From positions 1 through 22,446 of the forward strand of contig JAITCS010000029.1 of NCBI GenBank assembly GCA_031282935.1: 22,446 bases of DNA. The letters run 5' to 3'. The notes below the pieces were generated by a model. The model worked only from the letters and a program-made list of their open reading frames with translations. It was not told the origin of the DNA and made no database searches. Origin of the DNA: Cellulomonadaceae bacterium. Lineage in GTDB: Bacteria; Actinomycetota; Actinomycetes; Actinomycetales; Cellulomonadaceae. Of the stretch, positions 4,732 through 18,434 are shown one piece after another. A program made the translations under genes and the position numbers. How positions within the stretch are numbered: position 1 is the first letter of the stretch; every line of letters starts with the position of its first letter.

Positions 4732-4759
4732 CGGTGGTTTCGACAGGCTCAACCAACGG
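4732..4759 (+). repeat. 28-base palindromic dispersed element, copy A
   Basis: Core TTTCGACAGGCTCAACC with flanking arms CGGTGGTT and AACCAACG, which pair over 8 bases with one mismatch around an 11-base loop. It begins directly after the maf stop codon. It is identical to copy B (4892-4919) except at one base. A degraded partial copy may follow at about 4762-4775. Confidence 0.85.
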
Positions 4760-4790
4760 GCTGTGGTTTCGGTGACCGACGCAGACCGAG

Positions 4791-4816
4791 GGTAGAGTCC
4801 GCTTGCGGACTTTACC
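4791..4816. other. Strong intergenic hairpin
   Basis: GGTAGAGTCCGC pairs with GCGGACTTTACC across a two-base TT loop: 12 pairs with one G-U wobble. There is no T-run after it on either strand, so it is not a classical intrinsic terminator. It may still slow or protect the 3' end of the maf transcript. Confidence 0.6.
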
Positions 4817-4861
4817 GAGGGCCAGGAGGGCACAGGGAGCGAAGCGACCGCCACAGGCGGG

Positions 4862-4879
4862 CGCGCGGAATACCGCGCG
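4862..4879. other. GC-only hairpin CGCGCGG-AATA-CCGCGCG
   Basis: Seven perfect G/C pairs with a four-base loop, just before copy B of the 28-base element. It is part of the structured block between the two copies. No T-run follows. Confidence 0.55.
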
Positions 4880-4891
4880 TCAACCGGCGGT

Positions 4892-4919
4892 CGGTGGTTT
4901 CGACAGGCTCAACCACCGG
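4892..4919 (+). repeat. 28-base palindromic dispersed element, copy B
   Basis: CGGTGGTT (4892-4899) pairs perfectly with AACCACCG (4911-4918) around the loop TCGACAGGCTC. Its reverse complement matches the repeated coding units at 9562-9883 at 25 of 28 bases. Similar GTTGAGCCTGTCGAAACC-type palindromes are, from memory, dispersed in many actinobacterial genomes. I cannot confirm copy number here. Confidence 0.85.
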
Positions 4920-5075
4920 ATTAAAACAATTAGTGTGAGCCGGGTTACATTATCATTTGGCGCTTATCGCCAGCCCATTTTTCGCTAAAAGGCGCCCGAT
5001 TTCAAGTTTAGAGTGAACCGCAACACATTAGCGTCCCCGCAGGTCACGACACGCATTTTTATGCTTGCTTTGGTG

Positions 5076-5090
5076 GTTGCGCTGCGCAAC
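5076..5090. promoter_or_regulatory. Perfect 7+1+7 palindrome, possible operator of the surface gene
   Basis: GTTGCGC-T-GCGCAAC is perfectly symmetric and lies 41-55 bases before the start codon at 5131. TTGCTT (5066-5071 region) and AACTAT (5088-5093) could form a weak -35/-10 pair of 17-base spacing that would embed the palindrome in its spacer, as expected for an operator. The base pairing is seen directly; the role is inference. Confidence 0.35.
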
Positions 5091-5130
5091 TATTGCCCCG
5101 TTGATAAGGGATCGTTATTTGGAGCATAAA

Positions 5131-8100
5131 ATGGTTTTCGCAAACTTCAAGGTAGCCGCGAAAAACGTAATGGGCATTAAAATAGGTAAGCGACTAACCA
5201 CCGCCGGGGTGGTTATGGCATTGGGGTTCGGCGCGAACCTGGCGACCGCTTTACCTGCCGCAGCAGCGGGCATCAGCAAGGACGCTTCTGACGTGGTTGT
5301 GAAGGTGGGCGGGGCGCGCACCAAGAACTCGGGCGAGGTCGCCGGTCTGAATGACGTGTGGCTGGGCCTCTATTCGGCGGCAAACGGCGGGCAGTTGGTG
5401 TTCGCTACGAAGTCCGCGCCCGGCACCACCACCGCTGACGATTCCGGCAAAACCACCGATGGTATTGCCCGGTTCCATCTGACGGAAACAAGTCGCCTTG
5501 ATGACGCTAATTACCCCGGCCGCCCCGCGAAAATCCTTGGCGACGCCACGGCTACACAATCGAGGTTGAACGCCACCAATTCTGCGATCCTTTATCTGCG
5601 TCCGCTCGCCGCAGATGATGTCACCAAGCTGCGCGAACAGGGCGTCGGCGGGCAAAATGAAACCGCCACCCCCGCAGGCTGGGAGCACCTGACGCAACTC
5701 GCCACCAACACGGGCACCGCCGTCGGCGATACGAAAACCCGCGACTATGCTTTCCCCGTGCCGCCAACGGGTCGCCTGCGCGCGAACCACCTTTACCTTT
5801 CCGGTAGCACAAACGGCGACTCTGCCCAAAACGGCGCCACCATCGGGATAATGAACTCCAGCGGCGCCAACCAGACCGCCTCCAGCGGGTTTTTCACCCT
5901 CCGGGCCGAAAACGGCGCCATGCCCACCACCTGCAAAGCGCTCAACGTCGCACTGATCCTGGACACCTCCCACTCGGTGACCGCCCCGCAGCAGGTGCAG
6001 TTGAAGGACGCCGCCTCGCAACTGGTCTCCGCCTTCACCAACACCGGCTTATCCCTGCAACTGTTCACGTTCGGCACCGACGCCACCAAGCGCACCGACC
6101 TCACCCCGTTGACCCCGCAGGGCGCCACCATCGTCAAGGCCGAAATCGCCCGCCTCACGAACGCCACCTTCAACGGCCAGTGGACTAACTGGGACGCGGC
6201 CTTGTGGGCCTTGCAGCCGCAAGAAAAACTCGGTCTGGCCAAAAATGGCACCAATTTCGACGTCGCAATATTCCTCACCGACGGCCTGCCCACCACTTAC
6301 GGAGGCAACGGCGGCGCGAATCGCACCACCACCACGGGAAACGTCACCAACACCGCTGGCAACACCGTTCCCCTGACCGACTTCTTCCGTACCGAGCGCG
6401 CCATGCAGGCCGCCAACGCCCTCAAGCAGAACGGCACCCACATAGAGGTGCTCGGCATCGGCGACGCCCACGCTTCCAAGCCCGCGCTGCTGAACCTGAC
6501 CGCCGTCGCTGACGCGCACTCGGTGACCACCGAATCGTGGGATCAGTCCGCCCGCGCGCTGCGGTATTCGGTGCTCAAGCCTTGCCTGCCCTCGCTCACG
6601 GTGACCAAATACGAGCGCCCCTGGGACGCGCCGAACATTTCCGTGTGGGATGACCCGAACAGCACGCGTGACCTGCTCGCCGAGGGTTGGGATTTCACGG
6701 TCTCGGATTTGACCCAAGATACGATGGTTCTTGACCCCAAGTTTTTCCCAGACGCTACCGCCGCTGACCAATCCGCTGTCGAAACTACTGACGAGGCCGG
6801 ATCGGTGTTCTTCAAGTTGCTGGCCGTGAACGAGGGCGCTGACGACTTCGACCCCGATAAGCAACTGGGCAGCCTCACCGTGACTGAGGACCAGCAAGAG
6901 GGCTGGAACATCGTGCAGCAAATCTCCGAAAGCGACGACACGCCGCGCAACGCGCAGTGCGTATACATCAGCCAGTACACCACCGACAAGGCCATGAACA
7001 GCAAGTACGGTGGCGATGTGGTGGGCACCCGCCCGAGTTGGGTGGATACGGACGGCGTTGTTACGATGGGCGAGCCGCCCGTGGTGTTGCCTGCCAATTT
7101 CGGCCGCAAGGTGCCGTGGATTGACATCGAAACTGGCGGTTCCACGCTCGCCCGCCCGGCGTTTCGCATTGTGGACATGGCGGTGACCGACATGGTGCGG
7201 TGTACGGTTATCAACCAGGCGATGAAGCCGCTGGAAATTGTGGTTCCCGAGTCGCTGAACCCTGGCGAGATCGCTTTCGTGGGGCAGCACGTGGTGGATT
7301 ACGGCTGGGAGATTACCAAGGGGGTGGACACGCCGGTCGTCGAACTGTCGGGATTGGAGGCTGGTGCCGAATCGCGGCAGGCCACGGTCAATTACCAGTT
7401 GGATGTTAAGGCCGACTTGCGCGCCGAGGGCCGTGCCTTCGCTGCTGCGGGTGAGGTTGAGATCAAGAACCCGAACTCCCCGGCCTGCCCCGACGGTGAG
7501 ACGGATTGCAACCCGAAACTGGCCGCGCCGTTGCGCCTGGACGGGGTGAAACTGGAGATTGCGGGCAAGCCAATAGAGGCCGTTACGTGGACCCAAGACC
7601 ATCCTGCCCCCTGCGACACCCCGGTGCACTTCACCACGCCGGGTTGGGTGGTAAATGGGTTGAGCGACCAAGTGGAAATCGAGTACCTGCGCAGCCCCGC
7701 GTCGAGTTTTGCCCCTGACGAACCTGCCGCCTCCTGCGACGCCGACGGCACCGAACTCCCGGTGTCCTCCGATGGCCACGTTGCCAAGGTCACCCGCTCC
7801 AAGGACTGGGCAGGATTCGCCACCGATTCCGGGCTGCTGCTGCCCGGCCACTCGTACCGGTTCGCGTTGCGGGCACGGACGGCGGCGGGCGTCGGCTCGG
7901 TCGGTTTCCGCTTCGTTTCTTACTACGTGGATGCCAAGGGAGCTGAGCACTTCGATTGGGTGAACCCCACCAGCATAGACGAGAACTGGGCACCGATTTC
8001 GGGCACTTGGAAGGTGCCGCTGGACGCCGCCGACGCCCGCGTCTATTTGGGTACGTCCGATGTCGCTGGCGTGGCGGCCTACGCCTACTACGTGGACGAC

Positions 8101-11100
8101 CTGACCGTTTCTGAGGTCACCACTTTCACCCCGCAGGTCACTTCGGTAACTTTCGACGATGAAACCACTGGCGCTTACTGGACCAAATCTGGCGGGGCGG
8201 AACTGACTTTCCCGAGTGCGCCGTCTATTAGCGCCGGTAACGGCGGCGGCAACGGGGGCGGCACCGGCAGCGGCAGGGTGCTCTCGGTTTTACGCACCTA
8301 CGACTGGGACGGCATCGAAACCGTGTTGGGCGTCATCCAGCCCGGCACCTCGTACGAGTTCTCGATGAAGGTACGCACCGGGGCTGGGGTCGGCGCCTCG
8401 CGCGTGCGGTTCGTCGGCAACTCGCCGCTGTCGCCCGCCGGGCAACAATATGTGTGGATGGGCGACGACGCGGTTTCCGACGACGAGTGGACTACAATCA
8501 CCGGCACTTGGGTAACCCCCAAGGTCGGCGCCAACGGGGAACCCCTAACTGAGCACGACCTCAAGGTGTACCTCGGTTCGGCAGACTTGGGTCAGCCCTA
8601 CGAACTCCTGATTGACGATATTGTGGTGCGCCGTATTTCGACTGGAGGCACGGCAACCCTGCTGACCTCCGCCGAAATAGAACCGACCTCATACCTCTCT
8701 GAAATTACTGTTATGCCTGGTCAGAGCGTGTTGTTGCCGCTGCGCTGGGCTGCCGATGTCAGGCCGGAGGGCGGCGTGGAAGCCTCGCTCTCCGTGCCCT
8801 ACCACTACCTGTGGCCCATGCCAGCGACCGTGATCTCCGCATCGGGCAATGCTGCGGCCTGCCCCGATGCTGCGATGGGCTGCTACACCGCGCTGCGCAC
8901 CGTGGAGATTCCGAACCCGAACAGCACTCCCTTGGCAATGACTGATGTAGAGGTGCAAGTGGCTGGGCTGCCCGTGACTTTGGTGGCTAGTGCGCCGTCA
9001 TTGGTCTGCCCTGGCTCTGCGCCGGTTTCCGGTTCCCGCGATCTGGCTTTGAACGTGATCCCGGCTGGGTGCAAGCTGGAACTCGGTCTGACCTGGACGG
9101 GCCAGCCGCAGCCGCGTGGCTCGGTGGTGTTGGCAGAGATCATCATCAGCAAGCGCGCTTCGATGAACGTCAGTTTCGACGATGATCCGGTGCGCGAGAA
9201 CACTACGGCCCGTTTGACGGACTTGCTTTCTGGTTCTGATTTTGCCGAAGCTGCGGTTTCGCTTTGCGGTTCTGGTTCCGGTTCTGGTACTGGTACTGGT
9301 TCGCAATGGGGCGTTAGTTGCCTGGCCGATGGCAGCGTCGTTTTGGATATTGAGGCTGCGGGACGGCCAGCCGGTTTCTCGGGGTGGACTTTCGGATACC
9401 CGCAGACCTTGGCCGCCGCGAGCGAGCCCGGAACCTGTGCGGTTTATCGGAACGTGGCTACCGTGACGCCCGATGGCGCTGTGGCTGGCGACCAGCCGAT
9501 TACTGCTAGCGCAACGGCCTCGGTTTGCCTGGCTGAGGTTCCGCCGGTCGAGCCAGAGGAACCGGCGGTTGAGCCTGTCGAAACCCCGGAGCCAGAGGAA
9601 CCGGCGGTTGAGCCTGTCGAAACCCCGGAACCAGCCGACCCGACGGTTGAACCCGTCGAAACCCCGGACCCAACCGACCCCGACGACCCGGCGGTTGAGC
9701 CTGTCGAAACCCCGGAACCCACCGACCCGGCGGTAGAGCCAGAGGTTCCGGTCGAGCCTGAGGTTCCGGTCGAGCCAGAGTTACCGGCGATTGACCCCAC
9801 CGAAACCCCGGGCGACCCGGCGGTTGAGCCCGTCGAAACCCCAGAACCAGAGGAACCGGCGGTAGAGCCTGTCGAAACCCCGGATTCCGGCGCCATATAC
9901 GACGCCGCGCTGCGCGTGTGGGGCCAGCGAATCTACCGCCAAACCGACGGCGCGTGGCAGCAGGTGTACCAGTATCGCAGCGGTGTCCCGACCAAGCCGC
10001 TGCCGTACCTCGGTTTTGATGACGCCGCGACCGATTTGATGGTTGGGGACGCCGTGCAGTATGGCATCCAGGTCACTAACCAGGGCAATCGCACCATCCA
10101 CATTGACGCGTTGACTTTCCACGCCGCCCCTGGTTTGGTTCTAGCCGATGAACCAATCCATGTTGGCCAGACCAATGCAGCATGGCAAGTCGCTGGAGGC
10201 AGTTGGTTCTATTCGGTTCCGATGGATGATTTGCTGCTGGAACCGGGCGAGGCGAGCCTCGTGATGGTTACGGGCGTGGTCACAGAGGATATCGTGCTCA
10301 GTCCTGATGGGCATTTCGACTCCTTCGCCGAGATTTCGGGCATGTCCGCACCATTCGTGCTGCCAGTAGCCACCCCGCAACAAGAGGCAGAACCCGAGGC
10401 TGATCCTGAGGAAGAAACCGCTGCTGCGGAAGTTACCCCTGAGGAACAAGCCAACGGTTCAGACCTCGCAAGTGAAGATACCGAAATCCCCACCGCTGTA
10501 ATTGTCAATAAGACTACTGATGTCGTTGTTGATGACATTATCTTGGATGAGGACATCATTGCGGCGGATACCGTTGCAGAGGATACCGCCATCGAGGATA
10601 TCATTTTCGACGATATTATTGTTGCGGAAATAAAGGTATTCTCACTTCCAGCCACGATTGTGGATTTCGTTATGCCGCAGCCGGTTTCTTTCTTGGGCGC
10701 CAATGCGGCAACTCCGCTACTCGCAATCACGGATGAACCCCAAGGCGGCACCGGAATCCAAACGGAGGTAGTTTTCCGGGCGGTTGTTGATGTTGATTCC
10801 GATATGAACAATGACAATTCGGCACAATATTCCTTGAATTATGACCGTTTTGATAATGTTATAGATTCGCCTTTCGATGTGGATAACCACGACAGCACCC
10901 GTGCAATCGTGCGCTTGGCTGATACTAGTGAATCCAAGCCGGTCGTTTGCCCCTCCGACGCCGATTTGGATTTGGAGGATCCGGCTTGCGTGCTACCGCC
11001 TTGCCCCTTTGACTTTGCCCTCACGGGCGGCGACCTGGCTTGCACGCACCCCGGTGGTTTCGTGGGACCTGACCCCGAAACTCCGGTCACCGAGCCAGAA

Positions 11101-11679
11101 ACACCCGTCACCGAGCCTGAAACTCCGGTCACCGACCCGGAAACTCCCGTAGCCGAGGCTGCCACAGACCCGAAGCGTCCGGAGCGCCCCGCGAAGCCGA
11201 GCACGAAACCAGGGCAACCCGGTGACAATCCGGTTCAACCCGGCGGCGGCTACCCCGCCCCACCGACGGAGGTTGATACCCCTGGAATGAGCCAGGCCGA
11301 CGAGGTATTTCCTGCCGACCTTGGGAGCCTTGAAGTCGTGGCCGTCCACGGTCAGCCAAGCACCGAGGCGCCAGAACCGCGCGACACTGAAGCTGCTACC
11401 CGCAGCCAAAAAGCCAACCGTAAGGCAACGCGGTTATTTATAACCGGCAATGCCTCGAAAACCGAGCAAACTGCCACAGTTGAGCGCAGCGGCGATGGCC
11501 GCACTACGGGCAACCTTGAGAGCCAGGAAACCCAGCACAACCAGGCAAACCAGAGCGGCAATCCGGGCCACCTCTCCCGAACGGGCGCATCTCTGCTCCC
11601 CCTCGGTTTGGCTACCCTCGTAGCCGCTGCGGGAACCCTCACGCTGCGCCCAGGCAAACGCGCCAAGGCAACCTGCTAG
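5131..11679 (+). CDS. Giant cell-wall-anchored VWA/carbohydrate-binding surface protein
   Basis: 2182 residues. Start ATG 5131 has GGAG 6 bases upstream and begins a classic signal peptide (positive N-region, hydrophobic core, cut near LPAAAAG, about residue 45). A von Willebrand A domain (about 270-480) has the MIDAS residues DTSHS at 278-282, a TNWDAAL Thr and TDG at 383-385. A SpaA/Cna-B-like part follows (about 487-700), then two CBM4/9-like beta-sandwiches (about 876-996 and 1004-1170), each ending in DD followed by a hydrophobic strand. Two related NPN-containing segments (near 810 and 1265) look like duplicated surface domains. Next come VEPVET repeats (1478-1585), a DUF11-like domain (from about 1588), an Asp/Ile-rich block (about 1750-1884), PETPVTE repeats (1982-2009), and a C-terminus with LSRTG (2148-2152), a hydrophobic stretch and RPGKRAK. 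It is predicted to be exported, sortase-attached, and to bind glycans or matrix. The domain assignments come from reading motifs, and no search was run. It has its own leader and converges on the next operon. Confidence 0.85.
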   Translation: MVFANFKVAAKNVMGIKIGKRLTTAGVVMALGFGANLATALPAAAAGISKDASDVVVKVGGARTKNSGEVAGLNDVWLGLYSAANGGQLVFATKSAPGTTTADDSGKTTDGIARFHLTETSRLDDANYPGRPAKILGDATATQSRLNATNSAILYLRPLAADDVTKLREQGVGGQNETATPAGWEHLTQLATNTGTAVGDTKTRDYAFPVPPTGRLRANHLYLSGSTNGDSAQNGATIGIMNSSGANQTASSGFFTLRAENGAMPTTCKALNVALILDTSHSVTAPQQVQLKDAASQLVSAFTNTGLSLQLFTFGTDATKRTDLTPLTPQGATIVKAEIARLTNATFNGQWTNWDAALWALQPQEKLGLAKNGTNFDVAIFLTDGLPTTYGGNGGANRTTTTGNVTNTAGNTVPLTDFFRTERAMQAANALKQNGTHIEVLGIGDAHASKPALLNLTAVADAHSVTTESWDQSARALRYSVLKPCLPSLTVTKYERPWDAPNISVWDDPNSTRDLLAEGWDFTVSDLTQDTMVLDPKFFPDATAADQSAVETTDEAGSVFFKLLAVNEGADDFDPDKQLGSLTVTEDQQEGWNIVQQISESDDTPRNAQCVYISQYTTDKAMNSKYGGDVVGTRPSWVDTDGVVTMGEPPVVLPANFGRKVPWIDIETGGSTLARPAFRIVDMAVTDMVRCTVINQAMKPLEIVVPESLNPGEIAFVGQHVVDYGWEITKGVDTPVVELSGLEAGAESRQATVNYQLDVKADLRAEGRAFAAAGEVEIKNPNSPACPDGETDCNPKLAAPLRLDGVKLEIAGKPIEAVTWTQDHPAPCDTPVHFTTPGWVVNGLSDQVEIEYLRSPASSFAPDEPAASCDADGTELPVSSDGHVAKVTRSKDWAGFATDSGLLLPGHSYRFALRARTAAGVGSVGFRFVSYYVDAKGAEHFDWVNPTSIDENWAPISGTWKVPLDAADARVYLGTSDVAGVAAYAYYVDDLTVSEVTTFTPQVTSVTFDDETTGAYWTKSGGAELTFPSAPSISAGNGGGNGGGTGSGRVLSVLRTYDWDGIETVLGVIQPGTSYEFSMKVRTGAGVGASRVRFVGNSPLSPAGQQYVWMGDDAVSDDEWTTITGTWVTPKVGANGEPLTEHDLKVYLGSADLGQPYELLIDDIVVRRISTGGTATLLTSAEIEPTSYLSEITVMPGQSVLLPLRWAADVRPEGGVEASLSVPYHYLWPMPATVISASGNAAACPDAAMGCYTALRTVEIPNPNSTPLAMTDVEVQVAGLPVTLVASAPSLVCPGSAPVSGSRDLALNVIPAGCKLELGLTWTGQPQPRGSVVLAEIIISKRASMNVSFDDDPVRENTTARLTDLLSGSDFAEAAVSLCGSGSGSGTGTGSQWGVSCLADGSVVLDIEAAGRPAGFSGWTFGYPQTLAAASEPGTCAVYRNVATVTPDGAVAGDQPITASATASVCLAEVPPVEPEEPAVEPVETPEPEEPAVEPVETPEPADPTVEPVETPDPTDPDDPAVEPVETPEPTDPAVEPEVPVEPEVPVEPELPAIDPTETPGDPAVEPVETPEPEEPAVEPVETPDSGAIYDAALRVWGQRIYRQTDGAWQQVYQYRSGVPTKPLPYLGFDDAATDLMVGDAVQYGIQVTNQGNRTIHIDALTFHAAPGLVLADEPIHVGQTNAAWQVAGGSWFYSVPMDDLLLEPGEASLVMVTGVVTEDIVLSPDGHFDSFAEISGMSAPFVLPVATPQQEAEPEADPEEETAAAEVTPEEQANGSDLASEDTEIPTAVIVNKTTDVVVDDIILDEDIIAADTVAEDTAIEDIIFDDIIVAEIKVFSLPATIVDFVMPQPVSFLGANAATPLLAITDEPQGGTGIQTEVVFRAVVDVDSDMNNDNSAQYSLNYDRFDNVIDSPFDVDNHDSTRAIVRLADTSESKPVVCPSDADLDLEDPACVLPPCPFDFALTGGDLACTHPGGFVGPDPETPVTEPETPVTEPETPVTDPETPVAEAATDPKRPERPAKPSTKPGQPGDNPVQPGGGYPAPPTEVDTPGMSQADEVFPADLGSLEVVAVHGQPSTEAPEPRDTEAATRSQKANRKATRLFITGNASKTEQTATVERSGDGRTTGNLESQETQHNQANQSGNPGHLSRTGASLLPLGLATLVAAAGTLTLRPGKRAKATC
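9268..9303 (+). repeat. Six hexamer units encoding a Gly-Ser/Thr linker
   Basis: Six GGTTCN/GGTACT hexamers in tandem encode GSGSGSGTGTGS between two Cys residues of a surface domain. They are in frame, so gain or loss of units changes only linker length. A second Gly-rich stretch (GNGGGNGGGTGSG, about 8239-8277) sits inside the second CBM-like module. Confidence 0.8.
9562..9883 (+). repeat. Seven coding copies of the 28-base element (AVEPVETP repeats)
   Basis: Copies at 9562-9589, 9601-9628, 9640-9667, 9688-9715, 9784-9811 (most diverged), 9817-9844 and 9856-9883. Each encodes a variant of AVEPVETP with spacers such as EPEEP. Copy-to-copy steps are 39, 39, 48, 96, 33 and 39 bases, all multiples of three. 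The core GGTTGAGCCTGTCGAAACC is the exact reverse complement of the intergenic elements. The arms still pair (CCGG and GGTT with AACC and CCGG, one bulged base), so the mRNA could fold a row of hairpins. Confidence 0.9.
11074..11157 (+). repeat. Four tandem 21-base units encoding PETPVTE
   Basis: Four 21-base units encode PETPVTE, PETPVTE, PETPVTD and PETPVAE. They precede a Pro/Lys/Gly-rich stretch and the anchor, as expected for a wall-spanning segment. They differ in DNA from the 28-base element, although CCGGTGGTTTCG at 11051-11062 just upstream matches one arm of it. Confidence 0.85.
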
Positions 11680-15384: not shown

Positions 15385-16677
15385 TCAGGAGATTCTTTCG
15401 CATATTAGGTTTTGCGGGTTGTGGTTGGATTCGTTGCCGATGTCGTAAGCGTTTTCTAGGGTTGCTTGGGCGGCTGCGAAGCGGTCGGGTGTGTCGGTGA
15501 GCAGGGTGAATAGCGGTTGACCCGCCGTGACCGCGTCCCCCGGCTTGGCGTGCATCAGCACCCCGGTCCCGGCCTGCACCGGGTCGCCTTGCCGCTCCCG
15601 GCCCGCGCCTAATCGCCAAGCGGCCACACCGACCGCTAGAGCGTCAAGCCTGGTAAGCACGCCAGACTTGGGGGCCAGGACATCGCGGCGGTGCTTCGCA
15701 ACGGGCAATGGGGCGTCCGGGTCGCCGCCTTGGGCAGCCACCATTTCCCGCCACTTTATAAGGGCTTGGCCGTTGGAAAGCGCGGCGCGGATTTCGGGTT
15801 CCGAGGCTGGCCTGCCAGCGGCTTGCAACATTTCAGCAGCCAGGGAGATAGTCAATTCGACAATATCACTGGGGCCACCACCGTTTAGCACATCAAGCGC
15901 TTGTTGCACCTCGATCGCATTTCCGGCGGCATAGCCTAAAGGGGTATCCATATTAGTTAGCAAAGCCACCGTATTCACCCCGGCGTCTTTACCTAAATCC
16001 ACCATAGTTTGGGCGAGTTCCCGCGCCTGCGCTCTGGATTTCATAAACGCGCCACTGCCCACCTTTACATCGAGAATTAGCGCCCCAGTGCCTTCCGCAA
16101 TTTTCTTGCTCATTATGGAACTTGCGATCAACGGAATGCTTTCCACTGTTGCGGTAACGTCCCGCAGGGCATAAAGCTTTTTGTCAGCAGGAGCCAAGTT
16201 GTCCCCAGCAGCACAAACTACTACACCCACGGCTTGCAACTGCGCCAGAATCTGGCGATCAGATAAACTACAGTTGAAACCGGGGATGGATTCGAGTTTA
16301 TCCAGCGTACCCCCGGTGTGCCCTAAACCTCGACCGGATAATTGCGGCACGGCCACCCCGAAACTGGCCACTAATGGCGCTAAAGTGAGGGTTATCATAT
16401 CCCCAACCCCGCCCGTGGAGTGTTTATCAACGGTGGGTTTGCCAAGGGCACTAAAGTCGAGGCGAATCCCCGAATCAATCATCGCCTGAGTCCACTGCGC
16501 AATTTCCCGCCTATTCATGCCGCGCAAGAATATCGCCATTGCCAAAGCTGACATTTGTTCGGGGTCAACAGCGCCTTTAGTGTACGCGTCAACAATCCAG
16601 GCTATTTGCTCGTCGCTGAGTTCTTGACCATCCCGCTTGGCCTTGATAACCTCAACCGCTGTGTGGTTATTGTTCAT
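15385..16677 (-). CDS. deoA: Thymidine/pyrimidine-nucleoside phosphorylase
   Basis: Phosphorolyses thymidine, deoxyuridine and perhaps uridine to base and (deoxy)ribose 1-phosphate. 430 residues, the normal length of the family. The phosphate-binding KHSTGGVGD is at 85-93, the signature SGRGLGHTGGTLDKLES at 114-130, the substrate loop from KKLYALRD (166) to IMSKK (192), and DVKVGSGAFMK at 203-213. The C-terminal alpha/beta part is complete. Whether it is strict DeoA or the broader Pdp type is not separable by eye. Its ATG overlaps the last 11 bases of cdd, so translation is probably coupled; no strong ribosome site precedes it. Confidence 0.94.
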   Translation of the reverse strand: MNNNHTAVEVIKAKRDGQELSDEQIAWIVDAYTKGAVDPEQMSALAMAIFLRGMNRREIAQWTQAMIDSGIRLDFSALGKPTVDKHSTGGVGDMITLTLAPLVASFGVAVPQLSGRGLGHTGGTLDKLESIPGFNCSLSDRQILAQLQAVGVVVCAAGDNLAPADKKLYALRDVTATVESIPLIASSIMSKKIAEGTGALILDVKVGSGAFMKSRAQARELAQTMVDLGKDAGVNTVALLTNMDTPLGYAAGNAIEVQQALDVLNGGGPSDIVELTISLAAEMLQAAGRPASEPEIRAALSNGQALIKWREMVAAQGGDPDAPLPVAKHRRDVLAPKSGVLTRLDALAVGVAAWRLGAGRERQGDPVQAGTGVLMHAKPGDAVTAGQPLFTLLTDTPDRFAAAQATLENAYDIGNESNHNPQNLICERIS

Positions 16678-17098
16678 CGCGGTTTGGCCCCAGTTCGGAT
16701 ACAGGTTCTACACTTAGCGCAGCCGATAGTTTGAACGGTTGGGATAGTAATTCGTTTATGGTGACGATTCCGAGCGGGGTTTCTATCAGCAAGTCACTTG
16801 CAGCGTGCTCGTAAAGCAGTTGCCGACATCGCCCACACGGGGTTATCAAATCACCGGCACCATTCACGCAGCAAAAAGCGGTGAGCAAACCCCCGCCAGT
16901 ATTAATTAGTTCCGAGATTAGGCCACATTCGGCGCATAAGCCCAGACCGTAAGACGAATTTTCGACATTGCATCCGGTAACTAGCCTTCCACCATCGGTA
17001 AAGGCGGCCGCCCCCACTCGGTAATTGGAGAACGGCGCATAAGCGCGTTGCGCCGCCGCTTTAGCAGCTTCGCGTAAGGCAGACCAATCGGGAGTCAC
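16667..17098 (-). CDS. cdd: Cytidine deaminase
   Basis: Deaminates cytidine and deoxycytidine to uridine and deoxyuridine, feeding the downstream phosphorylase. About 143 residues, the small tetrameric class. The zinc site is complete: CAE (55-57) with the catalytic Glu, and PCGRC (87-91) with two Cys ligands. The substrate motif CNVENSSYG precedes it. GTG 17098 is chosen because GAGG lies 9 bases upstream inside the permease end; ATG 17119 is an in-frame alternative without a ribosome site and would overlap the permease by 20 bases. With the GTG start, it begins 1 base after the permease stop. Confidence 0.93.
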   Translation of the reverse strand: MTPDWSALREAAKAAAQRAYAPFSNYRVGAAAFTDGGRLVTGCNVENSSYGLGLCAECGLISELINTGGGLLTAFCCVNGAGDLITPCGRCRQLLYEHAASDLLIETPLGIVTINELLSQPFKLSAALSVEPVSELGPNRDEQ

Positions 17099-17099
17099 T

Positions 17100-18434
17100 T
17101 TAGTGATCCTCAACCACATAAGCGGTGCCGCTGGCGGCTGGGGCCCGCGATTTGCCTACTAGACCGGCAACCGCTAACAGGGTGACCATGTATGGCAGCA
17201 TCAGCATAAAGGAACTCGGCACCGGAGAGCCAATAATAGACAATACGGTTTGCAGTGAAATCGCAAAACCAAATAGTAAGGCGGCAAATGCGGCTCGAAT
17301 AGGGTCCCAATTCCCAAAGATAACGGCCGCTAAAGCGATGTAGCCAAACCCGTTGGTCATCTCCCTATTAAAAGCCCCATTCGCAACCAAGGTGTACGAG
17401 GCCCCGCCAATGCCCACAATAGCGCCAGCAATCAACAAAGCAATCCACCGCGTCCGGTTCACCCTAATGCCTACCGTGTCAGCCGCTTTCGGGTGCTCCC
17501 CCACCGCCCGCAGCCGCAACCCCCAACGCGTGCGGTTGAGCGCAAACCACACTGCCGCCACGGCAAAAATCATCAGATAAACCAAAATATTCTGGTTGAA
17601 TAACGCTGGCCCGATTAGCGGAATTTGTGACAAAAACGGGATGGGCACCTGTGAAAAGCGCACCGCTAACGTGTTATTCAAAGTCATGGCGTTGGGTTGT
17701 AACCAGCCGTTGAACAGGAAAGTGGTAACCCCGGTAATCAGCACATTGAGCACCACACCCACAATCACCTGCTCAACTCGGTAGTTAATCGCGAACACTG
17801 CTAAAATGGCGGCGACCATTAGGCCCGCGATAGCGGCAGCTAACAGCCCCAACACTGGACTGCGGGTTACCGATCCGACTACTGTGGCAGTGAAAGCGGC
17901 CATTAGCAGTTCGGCCTCAATAGCGATATTTACGACACCTGCCCGCTCGCCGATTACGCCACCTAAAGCGCCGAACACTAAAGGGATCGCTAGCAATAGC
18001 GCATTTCCGATTAGTGGCACTAGGTTGATTGTCCCGGCAGCTCCGGCTCCAGCCCACGCTAAGAAAGTGCTCATAGCAGCCAAGGCAAATAGCCCGATAA
18101 TCCAAAGCCATTGCCTTTTGTAAGTGTATGAGAACCAGAAAGCTAAGGCGGTCAAAAACACCATAATAGCAATAGCGATCCAGCCGAGGGTCATGGCGTT
18201 TGGGGTTAGCACGGGCACATTTCGCAACAAATCATTTCCGGTTGTCACCCCAAATCTGGTTTCCCCACCGCGCGGGTTGGCGAGCAAAAGAATCATTAAC
18301 AGTGCGGTTAGGGCGGCCATTACCAGCGGAGCTTTATAGTCGCGGCGGGCAATTACACGCAGTTCTATTGGCTCTTCTGCGGCCGATAAATCCAGTTCCG
18401 GCGGGTCAGTAATTGAAGCAAGATATATGGACAT
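17100..18434 (-). CDS. Nucleoside ABC transporter permease (BPD_transp_2, YufQ/NupQ-like)
   Basis: Membrane permease of a BMP-family nucleoside importer. 444 residues with about a dozen hydrophobic segments. The conserved core starts near 140 with FGALGGVIGERAGVVNIAIE and includes the ATPase-coupling segment around LRLRAVGEHPKAADTVGI. An N-terminal extension of about 130 residues adds a charged cytoplasmic head and three or four membrane segments before the core, as often seen in actinobacterial members. The start ATG 18434 has GGGGAG about 8 bases upstream, 12 bases after the previous stop. It pairs with the permease at 18447-19802 as a heterodimer. Confidence 0.9.
   Translation of the reverse strand: MSIYLASITDPPELDLSAAEEPIELRVIARRDYKAPLVMAALTALLMILLLANPRGGETRFGVTTGNDLLRNVPVLTPNAMTLGWIAIAIMVFLTALAFWFSYTYKRQWLWIIGLFALAAMSTFLAWAGAGAAGTINLVPLIGNALLLAIPLVFGALGGVIGERAGVVNIAIEAELLMAAFTATVVGSVTRSPVLGLLAAAIAGLMVAAILAVFAINYRVEQVIVGVVLNVLITGVTTFLFNGWLQPNAMTLNNTLAVRFSQVPIPFLSQIPLIGPALFNQNILVYLMIFAVAAVWFALNRTRWGLRLRAVGEHPKAADTVGIRVNRTRWIALLIAGAIVGIGGASYTLVANGAFNREMTNGFGYIALAAVIFGNWDPIRAAFAALLFGFAISLQTVLSIIGSPVPSSFMLMLPYMVTLLAVAGLVGKSRAPAASGTAYVVEDH

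Follow-up and report, generated by a model that had tools for sequence, protein, structure and literature searches.

We analyzed a 22,446-nt stretch of DNA from a Cellulomonadaceae bacterium (hereafter the window), in which a gene for a putative surface protein carries repeated Pro/Glu-rich units of the type AVEPVETP, and the gap between this gene and maf carries a palindromic DNA element with the same core. The AVEPVETP units are very likely copies of this dispersed palindromic element, which most probably entered the surface-protein gene at a domain junction without breaking the reading frame and was then likely multiplied there. Descent of the protein repeat from the element has good support from the DNA identity of coding and intergenic copies, the dispersal of the element, the absence of the tract from homologous proteins, and the occurrence of in-frame copies in other proteins. 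The relevant features of the window are as follows.

5131..11679, plus strand: surface-protein gene, 2182 residues, with a VWA domain (residues 272-471), a best CBM_4_9 stretch (1003-1131), the Pro/Glu tract, and a YDLALRxW-type domain from residue 1589
4732..4759, minus strand: intergenic copy A, starting directly after the maf stop codon; core at 4736-4754, minus-strand reading GGTTGAGCC...
4892..4919, minus strand: intergenic copy B, the better palindrome, of the CCGGT...ACC subfamily; core at 4896-4914
9541..9885, plus strand: whole Pro/Glu tract of ~115 residues, occupying a domain junction that has no such tract in homologues
9562..9589, plus strand: coding unit 1, AVEPVETP, of the CCGGC...CCGG subfamily; 28 bp identical to intergenic copies
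9601..9628, plus strand: coding unit 2; 28 bp identical to intergenic copies
9640..9667, plus strand: coding unit 3, TVEPVETP; two synonymous changes in the core
9688..9715, plus strand: coding unit 4; 28 bp identical to intergenic copies
9817..9844, plus strand: coding unit 5; one synonymous change in the core
9856..9883, plus strand: coding unit 6; one synonymous change in the core
9790..9807, plus strand: IDPTET stretch, doubtful and left out of the copy count, with 5 of 18 bases different from the element

The window was searched for the core, GGTTGAGCCTGTCGAAACC, with up to three mismatches, and the result was compared with 100 shuffles. Eight copies were found, two on the minus strand in the gap between maf and the surface-protein gene and six on the plus strand within the gene (core starts 9567, 9606, 9645, 9693, 9822, and 9861), versus none in any shuffle. 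A preliminary description of this DNA had proposed a core common to both locations in opposite orientations. This holds for the two intergenic and six coding copies, but not for a seventh coding unit, which is the IDPTET stretch, and the 19-base core is exact in only three of the six coding copies, the remainder having one, one, and two changes. The 25-of-28-base match reported between copy B and a coding unit was reproduced, and better matches lie outside the window: units 1, 2, and 4 agree at every one of 28 bp with two intergenic copies found elsewhere in this genome (L010 1611-1638 and L018 9490-9517).

The conserved stretch of the element, derived from the 61 copies of the own genome that do not fall within called genes (57 intergenic, 4 at gene edges), is CCGGT-GGTTGAGCCTGTCGAAACC-ACC, with a length of ~27-28 bp and conservation fading within ~5 bases on either side. 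The coding units, with a unit length of 13 residues, are members of a second subfamily of the form CCGGC-core-CCGG. A possible third subfamily with GGA 5' of the core and TAT or TGG 3' of it was seen at two loci of the same genome (L014 2278-2414 and L019 3352-3567). No link to viruses emerged, the exact 27-mer CCGGTGGTTGAGCCTGTCGAAACCACC having no match in viral_contigs. The palindrome is imperfect: single-stranded DNA folding gave an 8-bp stem for copy B (z -3.2) and a weaker structure for copy A (z -1.5), and among the folded copies only copy B clearly exceeds its shuffles. The arms of the three coding units that were folded do pair with one bulged base, as had been described, but no better than shuffled sequences (z -0.7 to -0.9).

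Dispersal of the element was assessed with the pattern TTTCGACA(A/G)GCTCAACC, i.e. TTTCGACARGCTCAACC, allowing up to two mismatches and using the reversed pattern as a control. The assembly that contains the window (1.5 Mb, 228 contigs, 65.5% complete) holds 188 copies, compared to a single one for the control; absence of the core from the rest of the genome had been named in the preliminary description as grounds for abandoning its proposal. Both the size and the number of copies are those of repetitive extragenic palindromic (REP) sequences, i.e. palindromes of 20-40 bp in high copy number. At up to one mismatch, nine of 11 genomes of the genus carry the element (G010, 566 copies; G002, 195; G000, the genome of the window, 181; G008, 74; G005, 49; G001, 24; G006 and G009, 4 each; G007, 2), and G003 and G004 have none. 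Three of 28 other relatives also carry it (52, 2, and 1 copies). In a sample of 297 genomes from across the order, nine, own genome included, have any copy when a 19-mer is used. The named carriers are Leifsonia sp. Root4 (259 copies), Micropruina sp. SSC1 (199), Arthrobacter nitrophenolicus SJCon (80), Arthrobacter sp. S39 (38), and A. silviterrae (19). The distribution of the element is patchy.

We located 340 copies relative to genes in stretches of G000, G010, and G002 that were picked for clusters of copies. Of these, 190 are intergenic, 9 lie at the edge of a gene, and 141 fall within called frames (57/4/28, 110/4/98, and 23/1/15 in the three genomes, respectively), an intergenic excess despite called genes occupying 82-91% of the bases of these stretches. 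In the own genome, 28 copies are in convergent gaps and 24 in tandem gaps, with none in divergent gaps. REPs are described as lying between convergent and tandem genes, not divergent ones (PMC3733652), and the mainly intergenic location of the element agrees with this, though divergent gaps hold copies in G010 (24) and G002 (6). The gap types of the own genome, together with the good folding of copy B, would also suit a function in DNA or RNA, as a hairpin at gene ends or a protein-binding site, that maintains the element and makes its coding copies incidental. This explanation, which is compatible with insertion and multiplication in the surface-protein gene, is rather unlikely as an account on its own, given the divergent-gap copies of G010 and G002, a copy number ranging from 0 to 566 within one genus, and the absence of any known RNA family from the window at the gathering score. 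Orientation skew of the kind found for a chromosome-sorting site was absent from 20 stretches of G010, which speaks in the same direction, and the reading of the element as such a site was dropped on this ground.

If the tract were an independent Pro/Glu linker, its likeness to the palindrome would result from amino-acid and codon choice only. Pro/Glu linkers are common in surface proteins, and a second tract of this protein, PETPVTEPETPVT, near the C terminus, bears no resemblance to the element by eye. However, with the codon usage of the other genes of the window, the probability that VEPVET is encoded by the exact 18-mer is ~0.0007 per unit, and Pro is encoded by CCT at four of six unit positions versus one of 30 in the remaining tract, making codon choice alone an unlikely source of the match. 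Considering also the 28-bp identity to intergenic copies and the reading of the element in other frames in other proteins, such convergence is extremely improbable.

The proteins of six sister species (G001, G002, G006, G008, G009, and G010) were examined at 11 junctions preceding the YDLALRxW-type domain, some of these proteins not being strict orthologues, and none has VEPVET or a long Pro/Glu tract there. Relatives bearing the protein repeat ahead of any intergenic copy, the other finding that the preliminary description held to be damaging, were not encountered, and its proposal that a dispersed element entered the surface-protein gene and was read in frame is supported by these tract-free homologues as well as by the 188 copies and the 28-bp identities. 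A search of a large protein database returned no match at E 0.001 for the surface protein or its repeat region; because homologues do exist, that search provides no evidence of absence. In NCBIfam, nothing came close to cut-off. The opposite direction of descent, in which the protein repeat arose first and its pieces were then scattered as DNA, might be favored by the six copies within the gene, more than at most single places sampled. It is nevertheless highly improbable, since there are carriers beyond the genus with 14-259 copies, the intergenic copies bear flanking arms for which an ancestor in the gene would have no need, and the homologues within the genus lack the tract although G010 holds 566 copies.

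Spacings between the coding units are 39, 39, 48, 129, and 39 bp, confirming that they are multiples of three, whereas spacings between same-orientation intergenic copies are distributed evenly over the remainders modulo three (27, 24, and 25). Tandem Repeats Finder reported two distinct arrays, one with a 39-bp period and 4.1 copies and one with an 18-bp period that lacks the element. The spacers following the first five units have 11-16 of 18 bases in common. The 39-bp array and the shared spacers favor duplication of the element together with its spacer over repeated insertion; the similarity of the units points to probable tandem amplification.

We scanned 47 element-bearing open frames with Pfam, comprising 42 of the 56 element-bearing called frames of three genus genomes and five frames of the named genomes; the other 14 frames were set aside, 13 having copies within ~20 residues of the frame start and one being only 92 residues long. 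For 21 of the 47, an in-frame copy is located inside a supported domain or between two of them, with Pfam or homology support on both sides. These proteins are the following.

Own genome (4): surface protein, DUF11 protein, LigA, prephenate dehydratase
G010 (10): GcvP, prolyl oligopeptidase, RNase H/AAA protein, ABC exporter, MrfA-type helicase, UvrD-PDDEXK protein, NudC-type protein, LacZ, GH3 glycosidase, double ABC ATPase
G002 (4): methyltransferase, RibBA (copies between its two domains), ABC exporter, Fpg
Arthrobacter (3): E2 acyltransferase, Lhr, Mfd

Support 3' of the surface-protein tract comes from homologues rather than Pfam, and that for the DUF11 protein from self-comparison. The surface-protein gene is one of many targets of the element and not a special case. 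VEPVET is also read in C-terminal extensions past the last Pfam domain (L008 994-2445, L025 8135-9157, L085 4843-5967, L031 4621-5349, and L036 952-2802), which stand outside the count of internal insertions.

Element-free orthologues were found for four of the 21 proteins, namely the methyltransferase, LigA, prephenate dehydratase, and E2. In the methyltransferase of G002, four 36-bp units take the place of a spacer that measures 5-8 residues in five of six aligned orthologues. At its junction, the only one read at the DNA level, no clean target-site duplication, which together with terminal inverted repeats and a matching transposase would mark a miniature inverted-repeat transposable element, was visible by eye. 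A tblastn match in G002 was rejected as a VEPVET protein, the supported frame being this methyltransferase on the other strand, with VSTGSTSGGVGG units. The LSLSKP units of LigA are present in none of nine orthologues, and all nine aligned orthologues of prephenate dehydratase are shorter at the site of the copy. The E2 of A. nitrophenolicus SJCon (L149 3608-5026) holds eight copies in two interdomain linkers, as compared to 1, 4, 0, 0, 1, 3, 0, 0, and 0 copies in nine Arthrobacter relatives (element-free in five of nine), whose linkers are Pro/Ala/Glu-rich; two of these loci (L165 and L167) were counted over an open frame extending upstream of the gene, and five more distant loci (L168-L172) were left aside. 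The DUF11 protein of the own genome (L011 1820-19372, G000:C99) has 5850 residues and more than 20 DUF11 stretches, and contains a single exact copy, which lies within a repeat and reads VVEPVET. At this site, 8 residues are missing from the paralogous repeat that resembles it most, and the other repeats are filled differently.

The element contains a stop (GGT TGA) in only one of its six frames, and is read, according to orientation and frame, as VEPVET, VSTGST, GFDRLN, LSLSKP, or FRQAQP. Among the 21 proteins, eight have VEPVET, four VSTGST, seven both, one LSLSKP, and one GFDRLN. The VEPVET and VSTGST frames are therefore used in 19 of 21 proteins (p 2e-6 for at least 19 if the five open frames are equal, with genes treated as independent), and in 16 of 18 within the genus of the window alone (p 3e-5). 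The sample is biased toward these two frames. The bias is probably no artefact of gene calling, since the caller is expected to favor the G+C-rich GFDRLN frame, and selection would be its likely cause.

Several observations weigh against in-frame insertion followed by multiplication. The closest homologues of the surface protein are ~30% identical, so that no empty site was seen at the DNA level in this gene. An 18-bp-period tandem repeat (9731-9780) encoding VEPEVP lies beside the units without the core. As this part of the tract is not derived from the element, a Pro/Glu linker could predate the element, and the VEPEVP repeat may represent such a pre-existing linker. The bases 3' of the last unit differ from the other spacers, with 7-10 of 18 in common. 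The methyltransferase of G008 (L124), a genome that itself bears the element, has a longer stretch with VVSSSTT at the insertion site seen in G002, perhaps an independent, decayed copy. The REP-associated tyrosine transposase (RAYT) that the preliminary description advised looking for was not found: the search, aimed at Y1_Tnp (PF01797) as the domain of the RAYT family, gave no match in the 11 genus genomes, nine of them carriers, or in eight further carriers, some of these genomes being incomplete and control genomes matching as expected. RAYT was dropped as the mobiliser for this reason.

A further group of counterpoints concerns translation. In 26 of the 47 scanned frames, two-sided support is lacking, the copy being near an end, outside domains, or in a frame with no domain. 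Moreover, the stretches were picked for copy clusters, and the gene caller is a simple one; part of its frames are surely spurious, and it missed a 150-residue, cytidine deaminase-like frame in the window (16667-17119). At a locus of G010 (L089 2010-2266), eight same-orientation copies at 34-bp steps rotate over three frames within a called frame of 776 residues in which Pfam finds no domain; this is probably an intergenic array. Such cases agree with the possibility that many in-gene copies are untranslated, the open frames around them having been over-called in G+C-rich genomes. Against it stand the 21 proteins supported on both sides in one frame, four of them with element-free orthologues, and we regard it as very unlikely.

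In the proposed mechanism, the element most likely inserted in frame at the domain junction of the surface-protein gene. With five of six frames open, a protein can tolerate a copy that falls within a linker and does not shift the frame. Selection would probably purge most copies that are not read as a soluble, disordered peptide, leaving chiefly VEPVET and VSTGST. The inserted copy was then likely multiplied as a 39-bp unit of element plus spacer, and the identical cores would allow slippage or unequal exchange that lengthens the tract into a Pro/Glu spacer, which is predicted to be flexible. The surface protein has a signal peptide and a C-terminal LSRTG motif with a hydrophobic tail, as read by eye, and on the basis of these secretion and anchor signals the linker may span the cell wall. 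The suggestion that a repeat element was the source of a protein domain is upheld as regards the origin, but "domain" is too strong a term for what is a linker. More broadly, the chances are about even that this transposase-less actinomycete palindrome is a general linker generator, dropped into domain junctions, kept as disordered VEPVET or VSTGST, and multiplied in tandem. Surface stalks, ABC transporters, RibBA, LacZ, and the swinging arms of E2 in several genera would then share one selfish DNA origin.

The origin of new protein linkers is rarely traceable, and here exact donor copies remain in the genome. With orthologues that lack the insert and a frame that varies between proteins, the retention of frames by selection and the growth of tandem linkers become open to direct study. 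The findings also raise the question of what moves the apparently mobile element when no RAYT is detectable, and add Arthrobacter and the genus of the window to Rickettsia and the other bacteria in which in-frame palindromes are known.

In-frame palindromes have been described as Rickettsia palindromic elements, intragenic GTAG/CGTC REPs, PARCELs, and enterobacterial RU elements (PMC2229807, PMC10969869, PMC3733652, PMC2996958, PMC2759123), and the comparisons below refer to the consulted parts of these reports. The element fits neither the GTAG/CGTC superfamily, a REP/RAYT system, a Rickettsia palindromic element, nor a PARCEL. Our literature search found no paper printing the core or its peptides and none linking REPs with Actinobacteria. 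Intragenic GTAG/CGTC REPs include one in DNA ligase and clusters coding for 43-82 residues (Di Nocera et al., 2013, PMC3733652). The element resembles them as a short, many-copy, mostly intergenic palindrome that is found in frame in some genes, including DNA ligase, but it has no GTAG or CGTC at its consensus ends and no detected Y1_Tnp, and is distinguished by tandem in-frame units, the two-frame bias, and apparently actinobacterial hosts. Rickettsia palindromic elements, of ~105-150 bp and with one open frame (Ogata et al., 2000, via PMC2229807 and PMC10969869), are likewise tolerated in frame in housekeeping genes; the present element, in contrast, has 27-28 bp, several usable frames, and tandem arrays. 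RU elements (103-168 bp), which resemble miniature inverted-repeat transposable elements (Delihas, 2007, PMC2759123), are comparable as small, mobile repeats that contribute open frames to genes by fusion, and differ in their greater length, sequence, and hosts. PARCELs, a 25-residue amphipathic protein repeat of the DUF285 type spread as coding sequence (Roske et al., 2010, PMC2996958), resemble the element in that palindromic DNA encodes tandem repeats of membrane proteins; however, the unit of the element is 13 residues and Pro/Glu-rich, the surface protein has no DUF285-type Pfam match, and intergenic donor copies, which are not described in the consulted part of the PARCEL report, are here identical to coding units. 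In-frame palindromes as such are already known, and what is new is an apparently RAYT-less palindrome that is tandemly amplified and read mainly in two linker-like frames.

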